Positions 14,416-20,191 of a stretch of DNA of 34,043 nt are shown here, piece by piece. The stretch is from Rhodospirillaceae bacterium. GTDB lineage: Bacteria; Pseudomonadota; Alphaproteobacteria; Rhodospirillales; JABHCV01. A program made the position numbers and the translations under genes. The stretch is from the NCBI GenBank assembly GCA_013204045.1, contig JABMOQ010000017.1, positions 1 through 34,043 of the forward strand, written 5' to 3'. Positions within the stretch are counted from its first letter, which is position 1; each line of letters opens with the position of its first letter. The notes beneath the pieces are model-generated. The model saw nothing but the letters and a program-made list of their open reading frames with translations, did not search any database and was not told the origin of the DNA.

Positions 14416-16959
14416 GTGCCTGACGATTTGACCACCGCCCGGAACCCGGCACCCGCCGACCGCCGCCTGATGTGGGCAACCATGCTGGCCGTTCTCAGTC
14501 TTTTGGCAGGGTTTATCGGCTGGCGATTGTCCGGCCCTGGGCAGTTGCTGGCCATGGCCACAGCCGGTGCGTTGGCCGCCGGCGCCGGGCTGGCGCTGAT
14601 CAAAAGCGGGGCCAGGCGGCATCTCGATGGCATTGTCGCCAGCGCCGTGGCCAACAGTTCCGAGGCGGCCTTCATTACCCGGTTGCCGAACGATCCGGCG
14701 ACGCCTTTCGTTTTTGCAAACCCGGCCTTTCACAAATTGTTTGGCGGCAGCGGTCACCCGGCGGGCAGCCTTGCGGGTATCGCCGGGTTGTTCGCCGGAA
14801 ATGACGAATCCGGCGATGAACTGGCCCGCTTGACCATGGCGGTCGATGCCGGCGGCTCGGACCATGCGGAAATCCAGGTTTTTGGCGCGTCCGGCGCGAT
14901 TGAATGGCGGCGCATCTCGGTGGTGCCGTTTACGCCAAAAAACAGCGCCCAAAGATATGCCCTGTGGCAGGCCAATGACATTACCGCGAACCGCGAGATG
15001 GAAGCCACCCGCCACCGGGAAGAAGAGCTGCTCGCCGATTTTCTGGATAACCTGCCGGCCGGTTTCTTCTCTGCCGATTCAAGGGGGGTGATCCGCTATG
15101 CCAACAGCGTGTTTAATGATTGGCTCGGTGTTACGGCCGACGAAATTCGCAGCGGCAATATCCGCTTTTCCGATTTTGTCGTCGCCGGAAGCGCCGATGC
15201 CGCGGTGTTGACGTCGGTCGCCGGCATCAATGGCGACGTCACCCTGCGCGGCCCCGGCGGCAGCTTGTTCAAGGCATGTTTGTTGCAATCGGAGCATGTG
15301 GATAGCGGCGGCGACATGGATTACAGCCGTTCGGTGCTGCTCCGCGAGTTGACCTGGCGCGGCGAGGCCGGGTTCTCGGCGGCCATCGGCAATGCCATGG
15401 GTATGCAGACGGGGACGGCAACGCCGCGCCTGCGCTGGTTGTTCGAAGAAGCCCCGGTCGGCATCGTGCTGCTGGACCTGCATGGCGACGTCACCGATGC
15501 CAACCGGGCTTTCCTGAAGCTGCTGGGGGTCCACAACGAGGCCGTCATCGGCAGGCCGTTTTCCGAACAGATCAGTAAGGAAGACCGGGGCGATGTGGCG
15601 GCCCAATTGTCTAAGGTGGTAATGGGCATCATGCCGGCATCCCATCTTGAGGTCCGCATGCCGGCCATGGGCGAACGGGAACTGGTGGCGTCGCTTTACG
15701 CGAGCCGCCTGGAAGACGACTTCGGCGAGGTTTCGGGTCTGGCCCTACATTTCATCGACACCACTGAACACAAGAACCTGGAGGTGCAGTTCGCCCAGTC
15801 CCAGAAGATGCAGGCCATCGGCCAGCTGGCCGGCGGCGTCGCCCACGACTTCAACAACCTGCTGACCGCCATGATCGGCTTTTCCGACCTGCTGCTGACC
15901 CGCCACGGGCCGGAAGATCCATCTTTTTCCGACATCATGCAGATCAAGCAGAACGCCAACCGGGCGACCAACCTGGTGCGCCAGTTGCTGGCGTTCTCGC
16001 GCCAGCAGACGTTGGAGCCGGTGGTGCTCGAGGTCTCGGGGGTGATTTCCGACCTGTCCCACCTGCTCGGCCGGCTGATCGGCGAGAATATAGAGCTCAC
16101 CATCGATCACCAACGCGACCTGTGGCTGTTGCGCGTCGATCGCGGCCAGTTCGACCAGGTGGTTATCAACCTGGCCGTCAATGCCCGTGATGCCATGCCC
16201 GGCGGCGGCACCCTGTCGATCCGCAGCGCCAACATCAGCATCAATCAGCCGGTGCAGCGCAGCCACGACGTTATGGCGGCCGGTGATTATGTTCTGATCG
16301 AGGTCGGCGACACCGGAACCGGCATCGCCAAAGAAGACCTGAGCCGCATATTCGAGCCGTTCTTTTCAACCAAAGAGGTCGGCGAGGGCACCGGGCTCGG
16401 GCTGTCCACGGTTTACGGCATTATTCACCAGACCAACGGCTATATCTTTGTCGACAGTGCGCCCGGCGAGGGCACCACGTTTTCCATCTACCTGCCGCGC
16501 CATGAGGGCGCGCCCGGCGAAATGGTCGCCACCGTGGACGGGCCTCCACGGCTCAAGGAAACGGCGGCCAAGAGCACCGGCGACCTGACCGGCGAGGGCA
16601 CGGTGTTGCTGGTCGAGGACGAAGACGCGGTCCGCATGTTCGGCGCCCGGGCGCTCCGCAACAAGGGCTATAAGGTGCTCGAGGCCCGCGACGGCGAACA
16701 GGCGCTGGATGTGATCAACTCATCGGACGACCACATCGACCTGATTATTTCCGATGTGGTGATGCCCGGCATGAACGGCCATACCCTGGTCAACCTGGTG
16801 CGCCATGAACTGCCGCACCTGAAGATCATTTTAATGTCCGGTTATTCGGAAGACGTGTTCGCCGACCAGGTCGAAGGCGATACCGGCATCGAGTTCCTGG
16901 CCAAGCCGTTCAGCCTCAAAGACCTGGCCAGTAAGGTCAAGGACGTGCTGGCCGGGTAG
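14416..16959 (+). CDS. cckA: Hybrid sensor kinase CckA
   Basis: 847-aa membrane histidine kinase that, through ChpT, phosphorylates CtrA and CpdR to control cell cycle and motility in alphaproteobacteria. Two N-terminal membrane segments (about 14-32 and 37-55) precede PAS-like domains (about 85-205, 205-310 and 340-445). The kinase core has GQLAGGVAHDFNNLLTAMIGF with His477, then NLAVNARDAMPGG, GDTGTGI and GEGTGLGLSTVYGI. The C-terminal receiver has VLLVEDEDAVRMFG and phosphoacceptor Asp780 in SDVVMPGMNG, with Lys at FLAKPFSL. The start is GTG 14416, 28 bases after flhB, so it probably belongs to the same transcript. Confidence 0.93.
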   Translation: MPDDLTTARNPAPADRRLMWATMLAVLSLLAGFIGWRLSGPGQLLAMATAGALAAGAGLALIKSGARRHLDGIVASAVANSSEAAFITRLPNDPATPFVFANPAFHKLFGGSGHPAGSLAGIAGLFAGNDESGDELARLTMAVDAGGSDHAEIQVFGASGAIEWRRISVVPFTPKNSAQRYALWQANDITANREMEATRHREEELLADFLDNLPAGFFSADSRGVIRYANSVFNDWLGVTADEIRSGNIRFSDFVVAGSADAAVLTSVAGINGDVTLRGPGGSLFKACLLQSEHVDSGGDMDYSRSVLLRELTWRGEAGFSAAIGNAMGMQTGTATPRLRWLFEEAPVGIVLLDLHGDVTDANRAFLKLLGVHNEAVIGRPFSEQISKEDRGDVAAQLSKVVMGIMPASHLEVRMPAMGERELVASLYASRLEDDFGEVSGLALHFIDTTEHKNLEVQFAQSQKMQAIGQLAGGVAHDFNNLLTAMIGFSDLLLTRHGPEDPSFSDIMQIKQNANRATNLVRQLLAFSRQQTLEPVVLEVSGVISDLSHLLGRLIGENIELTIDHQRDLWLLRVDRGQFDQVVINLAVNARDAMPGGGTLSIRSANISINQPVQRSHDVMAAGDYVLIEVGDTGTGIAKEDLSRIFEPFFSTKEVGEGTGLGLSTVYGIIHQTNGYIFVDSAPGEGTTFSIYLPRHEGAPGEMVATVDGPPRLKETAAKSTGDLTGEGTVLLVEDEDAVRMFGARALRNKGYKVLEARDGEQALDVINSSDDHIDLIISDVVMPGMNGHTLVNLVRHELPHLKIILMSGYSEDVFADQVEGDTGIEFLAKPFSLKDLASKVKDVLAG

Positions 16960-17024: not shown

Positions 17025-17032
17025 CTCACCAA
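17025..17032. repeat. Target-site duplication, left copy
   Basis: CTCACCAA, identical to 18911-18918 on the other side of the element. Eight bases is the usual duplication size of the IS1595 family. Confidence 0.9.
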
Positions 17033-17060
17033 CGCATGTATACCCTAGACGTACGTAACC
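17033..17060. repeat. Left terminal inverted repeat
   Basis: 28 bases, pairing with 18883-18910 reverse-complemented; the longest identical block is GACGTACGTA at 17048-17057. The mismatches lie mainly at the outer end. Confidence 0.88.
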
Positions 17061-17112
17061 ATTTCCGGCTACCCTATCGACTCTTTGACGAGTCGGGGGC
17101 AGAGTCGCGGGT

Positions 17113-17868
17113 ATGGCAGATAATTATTGGTCCTATTTCAAGGAATGCGTTGCAGCAGCCCATAACTTGTGGCGACTCCATGAGGAGGCCACAGTGATAG
17201 GCGGGGCTATATTGGCGCTTATAGCCGCCTTAATCGCAATTTTTTTCTTTCCCATAAGTTTTAAGGACGATACCGGACAATGGCTTATGGCCTTATTGGG
17301 GGCTTGGTTCATTTTCCTTTTTATTTTTGTATCTCCATACCTGTTATGGAAAAGGCTAAGGGGGGAAAACGCAAAATTAAAAGGTGCCATGTCTGCGAGC
17401 CAACAAAAACACATAAATATTGATTGGCGGAGTACGGCTCAGGGAGAGGCCCAACTGATTATAACGAACGACGGCCCGGATAATCAGACAATCCAGGATG
17501 TTGAGGTGATGGTCCGGAACTGGCGACACGCTAGTGGTGAACATGTTGAGGACATCCTAACAATATTAAAGCCGATTAGCGGCAGGCAACCGCCTATTAA
17601 ACTGCACCCCGGGGACCCAAATTATTTTGTGTTTGCTTCAGTTAAGAGGGGTTCAAACGGTAATGCAAAGATTGCAATAGTGCCGGGCTACCCAAATGAA
17701 AGGCAACCAACACAAAAGGAAATAGGTATAAAACTCAGTGTTTCTGGTGAGAATTTTCGGGGCGGCCCGATTGTTTTCCGTCTAAAATTGGATGACAACA
17801 ATGCGCTAATTATTGAGCCTTGGGAAGCGGGGGAAAAAGCGGTGCCAAACGAGGAGATAGGGGTGTGA
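17113..17868 (+). CDS. Two-TM cargo protein, function unknown
   Basis: 251-aa protein inside the IS1595-type element; I do not recognise its family. Two strong membrane segments lie at about residues 27-48 and 56-78, with a short connecting loop, so both termini are probably cytoplasmic. A short charged helix (KRLRGENAKLKG) follows. The remaining 150 residues look beta-rich (HINIDWRSTAQGEAQLIITNDGPDNQTIQDVEVMVRNW and GGPIVFRLKLDDNNALIIEPWE), suggesting an immunoglobulin-like or C2-like sandwich. DNA is more AT-rich than its surroundings and codons differ from host genes, indicating separate origin. ATG 17113 has a weak ribosome-binding site. It overlaps the next gene by four bases. Confidence 0.7.
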   Translation: MADNYWSYFKECVAAAHNLWRLHEEATVIGGAILALIAALIAIFFFPISFKDDTGQWLMALLGAWFIFLFIFVSPYLLWKRLRGENAKLKGAMSASQQKHINIDWRSTAQGEAQLIITNDGPDNQTIQDVEVMVRNWRHASGEHVEDILTILKPISGRQPPIKLHPGDPNYFVFASVKRGSNGNAKIAIVPGYPNERQPTQKEIGIKLSVSGENFRGGPIVFRLKLDDNNALIIEPWEAGEKAVPNEEIGV

Positions 17869-18047
17869 GCCACGGGAAATATTTAAGCCTCGAAGAAGCC
17901 CGTAAGGCGGGGCTTTTAGAGCGCTACGCCAAGGAACACCCTTCCGAAGGTGACGAGGCGGCGTTTGACCACCTCTTGGACGCTATGGCTTCGGGAAAGC
18001 CTGCAACAGAAGTTCAAACATCAACTCGGGGCGCTTCCGAAGATTAA
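17865..18047 (+). CDS. Small IS1595-associated cargo protein, 60 aa
   Basis: 60-aa hydrophilic protein starting at GTG 17865, overlapping the preceding stop (GTGA), with GAGGAGAT upstream. The sequence SLEEARKAGLLERYAKEHPSEGDEAAFDHLLDAMASG predicts two or three helices, and the tail is rich in Ser and Thr. I recall similar short proteins next to IS1595 transposases in other proteobacteria, but cannot verify this here. Its last 65 bases overlap the 3' end of the transposase on the other strand, so the two must evolve together. Function unknown. Confidence 0.65.
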   Translation: MSHGKYLSLEEARKAGLLERYAKEHPSEGDEAAFDHLLDAMASGKPATEVQTSTRGASED

Positions 18048-18849
18048 AGCGGTATTCCATTTCGGCCAGATACTTGGGCAGGTGTTTTTTCGATGCCCAA
18101 ACATGCGTTCCGCTGATCTGGCGCTTCATCCACGACCAGAAGCCTTCAATGGTGTTCGTATGAACCGGGCCGCGCACATATTCTTTTCGGGAGTGGTTGA
18201 CCGTGCCGTGCAGATAGCCTTCCTCTGGCAATTTGCTGTAGGAGCGAAGTTCGTCCGTGGCGATCCGGGTGCCGGGGTACACGTTTTCTAAAATGTGCGG
18301 GACAAGAACAAACTCATGGCGACCGGGAACCACGCGGGTAATGATTTCACCCTCACGTTCGACCATGCCGAAGACAACGGTCTTACCCTTGCCGCCGAAC
18401 CCGCGTTTCTTGTGACCGCCAACAAAGGCTTCGTCGACCTCAACGATGGGCTTTCCGCCTAACGGGGCATCGCCATCAACGAAGCCCATGTACTTGCGGA
18501 TTTCGTGTCCGATCCGCCACGCGCACTTGTAGGTGACGCCTAACTGGCGTTGCAGTTCCTTGGCCGATACGCCGTTGCGGGTCGTCGTAAACAGGTACAT
18601 GGCGTAGAACCACTTTTGCAGGGGCGTACGCGAACGCTCGAAGGGCGTCCCCGCCATCGGGTGAATATGATGGCCGCACGAAGGACAGGAATACGCAGGC
18701 AGCTTCTTGAGCCGCGCAAAGCGTCCATGCTTGTCGCACTTGGGGCAATCCAAGGATTCGCCGTATCTGGTAGCCATAAGATGCTCCAGGCACGAATCAT
18801 CGGTCGGGAATCGCTTGAAAAAGTCTTGGATATTGAACGTCTTAGCCAT
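17983..18849 (-). CDS. IS1595-family transposase
   Basis: 288-aa DDE-type transposase (ISXO2-like). The N-terminal zinc ribbon has C35-x2-C38 and C55-x2-C58. A helix-turn-helix-like region follows (SAKELQRQLGVTYKCAWRIGHEIRK). The catalytic core shows D139 in VEVDEAFVGG, D199 in IATDELRSY, and N232/E235 in HTNTIEGFWSWMKR, the family pattern. No frameshift or stop is seen, so the enzyme looks complete. ATG 18849 has AGGAGGAC just upstream. Its promoter would lie between here and the right element end, pointing away from recA. Confidence 0.93.
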   Translation of the reverse strand: MAKTFNIQDFFKRFPTDDSCLEHLMATRYGESLDCPKCDKHGRFARLKKLPAYSCPSCGHHIHPMAGTPFERSRTPLQKWFYAMYLFTTTRNGVSAKELQRQLGVTYKCAWRIGHEIRKYMGFVDGDAPLGGKPIVEVDEAFVGGHKKRGFGGKGKTVVFGMVEREGEIITRVVPGRHEFVLVPHILENVYPGTRIATDELRSYSKLPEEGYLHGTVNHSRKEYVRGPVHTNTIEGFWSWMKRQISGTHVWASKKHLPKYLAEMEYRFNLRKRPELMFELLLQAFPKP

Positions 18850-18882
18850 GTCGTCCTCCTATGGTCTAAATATACCAAAGAA

Positions 18883-18910
18883 GGCTACGTACGTCAAGGG
18901 GATATACGCC
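18883..18910. repeat. Right terminal inverted repeat
   Basis: 28 bases matching the left end in reverse complement (22 of 28). It begins six bases upstream of a perfect SOS box, with the target duplication between. Confidence 0.88.
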
Positions 18911-18918
18911 CTCACCAA
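18911..18918. repeat. Target-site duplication, right copy
   Basis: CTCACCAA, identical to 17025-17032. Removing the element and one copy would restore an uninterrupted cckA-recA spacer of about 215 bases. Confidence 0.9.
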
Positions 18919-18924
18919 ACACCA

Positions 18925-18939
18925 GAACATCAGCGGAAC
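18925..18939. promoter_or_regulatory. SOS box upstream of recA (perfect)
   Basis: GAACATCAGCGGAAC is a perfect GAAC-N7-GAAC, the reverse complement of the alphaproteobacterial LexA site GTTC-N7-GTTC. It lies 122 bases before recA and six bases outside the element's right target duplication. Confidence 0.7.
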
Positions 18940-18983: not shown

Positions 18984-19011
18984 TTGCCAATGAGAACAAA
19001 AAGGGTACATT
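18984..19011 (+). promoter_or_regulatory. Probable recA promoter with second SOS-like box
   Basis: TTGCCA (18984-18989) and TACATT (19006-19011), 16 bases apart, resemble -35 and -10 elements. Between them lies GAACAAAAAGGGTAC (18994-19008), a GAAC-N7-GAAC site with one mismatch. LexA bound there would block the promoter. Confidence 0.5.
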
Positions 19012-19060: not shown

Positions 19061-20191
19061 ATGGCCAACGCCAACCTGAAGCTCGTGGAAAAAGAAAACA
19101 TGGATAAGAACAAGGCACTTGAAGCCGCGGTGTCGCAAATTGAGCGCGCCTTCGGCAAGGGCTCGGTCATGCGCCTCGGCCAACGCGACTCGGTGGCGAC
19201 GGAAGTCATTTCGTCCGGTTCCATCAGCCTGGATATCGCCCTCGGTATCGGCGGCCTGCCTCGCGGCCGGGTGATCGAGGTTTACGGACCTGAAAGTTCC
19301 GGCAAAACGACCCTCGCCCTGCACGCCATCGCCGAGGCCCAGAAGATCGGCGGCACCTGCGCCTTTATCGACGCCGAACATGCCCTTGACCCCATTTACG
19401 CCGGCAAGCTCGGCGTCAACATCGACGAAATGCTGATTTCCCAGCCCGACGGCGGTGAACAGGCACTTGAAATTGCCGACACCCTGGTGCGTTCCGGCGC
19501 CGTCGACGTGCTGGTCATCGATTCCGTCGCCGCCCTGGTACCCCGGGCCGAGCTGGAAGGCGAGATGGGCGACCACCATGTCGGCCTGCAGGCCCGCCTG
19601 ATGAGCCAGGCGCTGCGTAAACTGACCGGCTCGGTGTCCAAGTCCAACACCATGATCATCTTCATCAACCAGATCCGCATGAAAATCGGCGTTATGTTCG
19701 GCAACCCGGAAACCACCTCCGGCGGCAACGCGCTCAAGTTCTATTCGTCGGTGCGCCTGGAAATTCGCCGTATCGGCGCCATCAAGGACCGGGACGAAAT
19801 TGTCGGCAACCAGACCCGGGTCAAGGTCGTCAAGAACAAGCTGGCACCCCCGTTCAAGATGGTCGAATTCGATATCATGTATGGCGAAGGCTTCTCGAAA
19901 CGCGGCGAACTGGTCGATCTTGGCGTTACCGCGGGTATCGTCGAAAAATCCGGCTCGTGGTATTCCTACGGCTCGGAACGCATCGGCCAGGGCCGCGAGA
20001 ACGCCAAAACATACCTCAAAGAACACCCCGACGTCGCCGACGCCATCGAGGCCGCCATCCGTCAGAACGCCGGCCTGGTTGCCGATACCATGCTCAAGGA
20101 ACCGGGCGCCGGCAAAGACGATGACCCGGCCACCGATATTGATGGCCTCGGCGACGCCCAGGACGACGTTTTGCCCGAAGCCGGGGAATAA
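19061..20191 (+). CDS. recA: Recombinase RecA
   Basis: 376-aa DNA strand-exchange ATPase and activator of LexA self-cleavage. Walker A is GPESSGKTT (residues 76-84, Lys82). Walker B is [24 protein letters not shown]. Loop L2 is [28 protein letters not shown]. The C-terminus is acidic ([19 protein letters not shown]), normal for RecA. Start ATG 19061 has AGAGAGGAA upstream. Two SOS-type sites precede it, and a strong terminator follows. The following alaS is a common neighbour. Confidence 0.98.

Follow-up and report, generated by a model that had tools for sequence, protein, structure and literature searches.

The window analysed here, a 34,043-nt stretch of DNA from a Rhodospirillaceae bacterium, harbors an intact 1878-bp IS1595 element (17033–18910), a non-composite, ISNwi1-like transposon of the IS1595 family that combines a fixed chassis with one exchangeable gene slot. 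The insertion site is the most informative part of this element, and LexA-guided insertion is the best explanation of its sequence context: at a probability of roughly 0.78, we read the element as a chassis-plus-slot IS1595 transposon whose transposase clade picks its targets by the host LexA operator.

Overall organization of the element

The element is flanked on both sides by the 8-nt target site duplication (TSD) CTCACCAA (17025–17032 and 18911–18918; 8/8 match) and ends in 28-nt terminal inverted repeats, located at 17033–17060 (cargo end, + strand) and 18883–18910 (transposase end, − strand), which match at 22/28 positions. It is inserted between a cckA-like gene that ends at 16959 and recA (19061–20191, + strand), a host gene beside the target and outside the element. 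The 288-aa transposase (17983–18849, − strand) matches the NCBIfam IS1595 transposase model NF033547 (3.5e-59; score 200, cutoff 75) and the Pfam family DDE_Tnp_IS1595 (PF12762; 5.8e-40), contains a zinc ribbon (PF12760; 5e-7, 30.0 bits versus a cutoff of 25.4) with the CxxC pairs C35/C38 and C55/C58, and conserves D139/D199/E235. The direct repeats, the inverted ends, the intact transposase with its zinc ribbon and DDE residues, and the location between cckA and recA are all confirmed as described in the original prediction.

The DDE transposase type, the N-terminal zinc ribbon and the 8-nt TSD are those of the IS1595 family. Inverted repeats in this family typically start with GG(C); in the window, the transposase end begins with GGCG and the cargo end with CGCA, and many relatives start with CGC or CAC. 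An element from Nitrobacter winogradskyi (L139) falls in the same transposase clade, and the window element probably belongs to the ISNwi1 group. As a 251-aa gene lies inside the TSD-bounded ends, the element is also a tIS, i.e., an IS with a passenger gene (PMC7986276), in support of the earlier proposal that an IS1595 element carries a passenger here.

The 251-aa slot (cargo) gene occupies 17113–17868 (+ strand). A co-oriented 60-aa ORF (17865–18047, + strand), marked by a YLSLEEARK...F-x2-LL-x-A motif, starts within its end with a 4-nt overlap and, as previously noted, meets the transposase end tail to tail, overlapping it by 65 nt. GC content is 46% for the 251-aa gene, 58% for the small gene, 55% for the transposase and 57% for the window, such that the earlier description of an AT-rich two-gene cassette applies to the 251-aa gene and not to the 60-aa gene.

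The transposase has a promoter, TTGACG-17-TATATT (18869–18897, − strand), with its −35 element inside the inverted repeat. In 67 of 84 cleanly bounded elements, the transposase end has its best sigma-70-like site starting at inverted-repeat position 14, and resemblance to a −10 element is greatest at a spacing of exactly 17 nt. A weaker −10 peak is found at the same place at the slot end, which suggests that a mirror-image promoter serves the slot gene in part of the elements. Despite this enrichment across elements, the version in the window's own cargo-end repeat, TAGACG-18-TACCCT, is weak and was rejected as a promoter. An Rfam search returned no match.

A LexA box at a fixed distance from the insertion

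An exact alphaproteobacterial LexA (SOS) box, GAACN7GAAC/GTTCN7GTTC (PMC3091678), lies beside the insertion; the original prediction did not include this box and took the insertion site to be incidental. This distal box of recA, GAACATCAGCGGAAC (18925–18939, + strand), is separated from the right TSD by the 6-nt spacer ACACCA (18919–18924) and is therefore 14 nt from the element end (TSD plus 6); we infer that it is the target determinant. A proximal recA box, GAACAAAAAGGGTAC (7/8; 18994–19008, + strand), resides inside the recA promoter spacer, and the recA operator and promoter are intact in the window.

Related elements were collected with a query alignment of 17 transposases, which yielded 80 loci each from species genomes and viral contigs, and the survey comprised about 170 related transposases; many of these loci are metagenome bins whose organism names may be wrong. 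A script paired ends with TSDs and retained elements with an 8/8 TSD and at least 19/28 matching end positions, giving the 84 distinct elements with clean ends. Exact outward-reading boxes occur 14 nt from the element end in 8 elements, at 15 nt in four and at 16 nt in one. No other distance is clearly recurrent for exact boxes, and none of inward polarity is found at 14–16 nt. Of random positions, 0.011% have an exact box at 14–16 nt and 0.23% have one matching at 7/8. In the aligned targets the box alone is conserved, and the TSD and spacer are not. Either the transposase end or the cargo end faces the box, which always reads outward. Palindromic targets as a general rule were considered and rejected.

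Sixteen surveyed elements lie upstream of recA, a location noticed first through the Nitrobacter winogradskyi element. These sixteen, together with the intact recA promoter in the window, would also be expected if insertion were broadly random, copies upstream of recA persisted as the gap tolerates them, and the box were incidental. This explanation is very improbable in view of the fixed 14–16 nt spacing with a single polarity: within element–recA DNA, only 4% of positions would satisfy the spacing rule, whereas about 13 of the 16 recA insertions obey it (binomial about 3e-16). It also leaves unexplained the several cases at boxes away from recA and the absence of the pattern from other clades. 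The non-recA boxes include one at a gene identified from its N-terminus as a ribonucleotide reductase gene (L123) and one at a gene with a double box (L121), the gene names being read from the sequences. Against LexA targeting, several non-recA boxes are at genes not known as SOS genes, and some spacings are 15–16 rather than 14 nt.

Three genomes of the window's family have no element between cckA and recA and keep the distal box (GAACCAAAATGGAAC, GAACTAAAAAAGAAC and one 7/8 box), which indicates that the box was there before the element arrived; the flanks in these genomes have diverged too far for a single-copy CTCACCAA to be recognized. In two of them (L265 and L266, from G001 and G003), a class III aminotransferase-like gene occupies the cckA–recA gap where the window has its element. 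At the same recA box in different genera, the TSD sequences differ, each matching its own partner, and both element orientations occur; these elements therefore look, from their sequences, like separate and independent insertions. A later search added L293 (inverted repeats 27/28, TSD 8/8), with a 7/8 box at 14 nt and recA next to it. In its slot-side flank, another IS1595-type inverted repeat directly adjoins the TSD, so insertion at this recA site seems to have occurred repeatedly. A solo IS1595-type end is also present 15 nt from the recA LexA box in G336 (L291, contig 9, 2150–2420); no transposase was found on that contig, and the end is a remnant or a non-autonomous copy.

Box-adjacent insertions fall largely in one transposase clade

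A phylogeny of 167 transposases places 21 of the 22 box-adjacent elements in a single clade of 32 members (SH-aLRT 98). After unclear ends were inspected by eye, this clade comprises 22 elements with a box (only 6/8 in L124), 6 without and 4 with incomplete ends; accordingly, 22/28 clade elements with both ends known have a box at 14–16 nt, compared with one element outside the clade. Because the rule was already known when some ends were called by eye, the strict set with automatically called ends is the safer figure: 14/18 in the clade versus 1/66 outside (p=1.4e-11). Counting against the rule are the clade members with known ends and no box (L106, L127, L129, L131, L151 and L153) and the slot-side flank of L140, which has the only exact box at 14 nt outside the main clade and represents an independent case or chance. 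Other clades perhaps use other host protein sites.

Several further insertion sites were observed in the survey. The insertion of L081 (element ends near 1535 and 3616; TSD TCACGTGA) is exactly central in a perfect parS site, TGTTTCACGTGAAACA, the binding site of ParB. In a sister clade that includes L005, the second element in the window's genome, the targets of L051, L109, L111, L052 and L300 carry phased ACAAATGT / TGTNNACA repeats, some of which resemble BlaI/CopY boxes (TACAAATGTA). The element at L304 lies within a terminator-like inverted repeat, TTGCCCAACAAA-TTTATTTT-TTGTTGGGCAAG.

A model for target choice

In the proposed mechanism, insertion would place the 8-nt TSD and about 6 nt between the element end and GAACN7GAAC, with either end facing the box and the box always reading outward, and the upstream side of the recA operator would offer a safe landing place that is universally available. 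Targeting is most likely determined by the transposase. Several box-targeted elements, e.g., L125, L130 and L139, lack the N-terminal half of the small protein, and this half is therefore not needed for targeting. What the transposase reads could be either the operator itself or LexA bound on it, and direct reading of operator DNA is nearly as likely as contact with LexA.

Recognition of GAACN7GAAC by the transposase itself, with no part played by the LexA protein, is a tentative option that accords with the box being the only conserved target feature, the TSD and spacer being unconserved, and that needs no element-encoded adaptor. However, it is generally unusual for a single-transposase DDE element to read a 15-nt target at a distance, and the bases involved coincide exactly with the LexA consensus, whose 7-nt middle is free. 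As for contact with LexA, roughly 10 nt lie between the TSD center and the edge of the box, and the distance from that center to the first GAAC is close to one helical turn; with half-sites 11 nt apart, this puts the insertion point roughly on the LexA-binding face. The target complex would then touch LexA, as proposed for ISAjo2 and XerC (PMC10132070). A wider version of LexA-guided insertion, which we hold at somewhat below even odds, is that a single-transposase element recognizes the operator-bound SOS repressor and integrates about a helical turn from it. Where the element settles, and perhaps how it moves later, would thereby depend on the host DNA-damage response, and its slot would keep receiving new membrane effectors.

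A conserved chassis with one exchangeable slot

The chassis consists of the left inverted repeat, the transposase, the small convergent gene and the right inverted repeat. An ORF that matches the profile of the 60-aa protein lies on the strand opposite the transposase in 69/84 elements, and among the 32 closest it overlaps the transposase stop by 18–104 nt in 28. Outside the overlap, pN is 0.30 and pS 0.79 in these 32 (pN/pS about 0.38, with pS near saturation), arguing that the small protein is under purifying selection. A slot gene is missing from L090 (1142 bp) and L127 (1195 bp), although both elements are cleanly bounded and keep the transposase and the small gene. As the 60-aa gene is part of the conserved chassis and persists in these cargo-less elements, the two-gene cargo of the original prediction is not supported, and only the 251-aa gene is cargo. 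The 60-aa protein matched no Pfam or PDB family.

In pairwise comparisons, similarity between elements runs from the left end across the transposase to approximately the start of the small gene, after which only the right inverted repeat is shared; the slot is swapped as a unit between elements. Among transposase pairs at least 70% identical, only 3/49 share a slot protein, and none of the six pairs above 80% does, including the window element and its closest relative, from Magnetovibrio; slot proteins are thus unrelated even where the transposases are 80–90% identical. The genome of the window itself carries, on another contig, a second, diverged element of the same layout (L005, 3354–5002; TSD TCAAACAA), whose transposase is 62–63% identical to the window's and whose slot protein differs (184 aa).

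Nearly all slots hold one intact, co-oriented gene. At E 1e-4, 63 of the 86 slot proteins match none of the others, and the whole set contains 14 Pfam families versus 114 in an equal number of flanking proteins (86). The slot genes have a low GC content (mean 0.48 versus 0.56 in the flanks; below the flanks in 71/78) and encode N-terminal TM segments in 48/78 cases, compared with 26/144 flanking genes (p about 1e-10), an estimate from simple hydropathy in which AT-rich codons favor hydrophobic residues. Recognizable slot genes in some siblings encode MazF, trypsin-like PDC-S45, PDC-S42, an IrrE-type peptidase, a methyltransferase, DUF3800 and PAPS reductase. The slot proteins of L050, L082 and L118 have a common N-terminal membrane module (37–41% identity) and differing C-terminal parts, i.e., domain shuffling within the slot.

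The 251-aa slot protein

The window's slot protein contains two hydrophobic segments (residues 28–46 and 60–78) that make up a TM hairpin, followed by a coil and a probable beta domain. This two-TM plus beta layout is weakly predicted: AlphaFold gave a mean pLDDT of 48, both without and with five possible slot relatives, eight strands are predicted at low confidence in the C-terminal part, and a profile comparison of beta regions gave a probability of 2%. On these predictions, the protein may be membrane-anchored with a cytoplasmic beta domain. The hairpin and following coil weakly match the slot protein of L056 (E 0.002, small database). Weak matches to a type VI effector model and DUF4199 are confined to the hydrophobic region and were rejected.

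In 199 order-level and 398 phylum-level genomes, no relative was found except partial matches at E 0.001–0.007, and genome contigs, viral contigs and plasmids yielded nothing apart from one meaningless phage match. The protein has neither a family match nor a relative in the collections searched; homologues outside IS1595 ends, which would speak against the cargo reading, were likewise not found there. Among PADLOC defence models, no family matched at E 0.01.

A membrane effector, defensive or abortive, that is kept for some host benefit is the likeliest role of the 251-aa protein, an assignment we make tentatively. The defence, toxin or sensor module suggested in the original prediction may apply, but a defensive function for the slot should be taken as hypothetical, because PADLOC matches in slot proteins show no enrichment over the flanking-gene control. 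Alternatively, the slot gene may be dispensable AT-rich orphan baggage, captured via an alternative right end and without a selected role, which we regard as unlikely. Its orphan status, its 46% GC, the low GC of slot genes generally and the existence of cargo-less elements agree with this idea, yet a single intact co-oriented gene fills nearly all slots, N-terminal TM segments are far more frequent than in flanking genes, and slot proteins show recurrent themes and have N-terminal modules in common. It is most improbable that the 251-aa and 60-aa proteins form a toxin–antitoxin or two-part defence pair carried as cargo. Although their genes are co-oriented with a 4-nt overlap and MazF and peptidase genes occur in sibling slots, the same small protein stands beside dozens of unrelated slot proteins and is kept without a slot gene, and PADLOC enrichment is absent. 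Moreover, several trypsin-like slot proteins (L057, L060, L063, L165 and L170) end in the C-terminal half of the small protein (P...F-x2-LL-x-A). A toxin–antitoxin pair ties the small partner to its toxin; here the small gene is constant and its partner variable or absent.

Comparison with known transposon systems

The window-type elements share with IS1595 tIS, probably those of the ISNwi1 group, the DDE transposase with zinc ribbon, the 8-nt TSD, the inverted-repeat type and a passenger gene, and differ from them in the conserved small convergent gene with a swappable slot and in their probable LexA-box targeting. We found neither feature described in the open literature. To our knowledge, defined targets are rare among simple DDE insertion sequences, and in open papers we found none described at the operator of a transcriptional repressor; LexA-site insertion appears to be a novel mode of transposon targeting. 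Elements that settle next to LexA boxes would connect target choice to a host regulator in a concrete and testable way, and the exchangeable slot offers a compact natural collection of membrane-protein genes without assigned function.

The nearest parallel in targeting is ISAjo2 and other IS1202-family IS, which sit 5 bp from the XerC sites of dif, and for which contact with bound XerC has been proposed (PMC10132070). Like the window-type elements, ISAjo2 is a single-transposase IS that keeps a constant distance from a site bound by a host protein; it differs in transposase family, TSD and host protein (XerC versus LexA), and, unlike in ISAjo2, either end of the window-type elements faces the site rather than one fixed orientation. 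With Tn7 and Tn7-like elements (attTn7; cargo survey in PMC8649781), the window-type elements share a conserved, harmless site beside a universal gene and diverse cargo between fixed ends, and recA would be a universal safe site by a logic comparable to that of attTn7. Whereas Tn7 uses dedicated selector proteins and carries large cargo, the window element has one transposase in about 1.9 kb and may represent a minimal single-transposase system for directed insertion.
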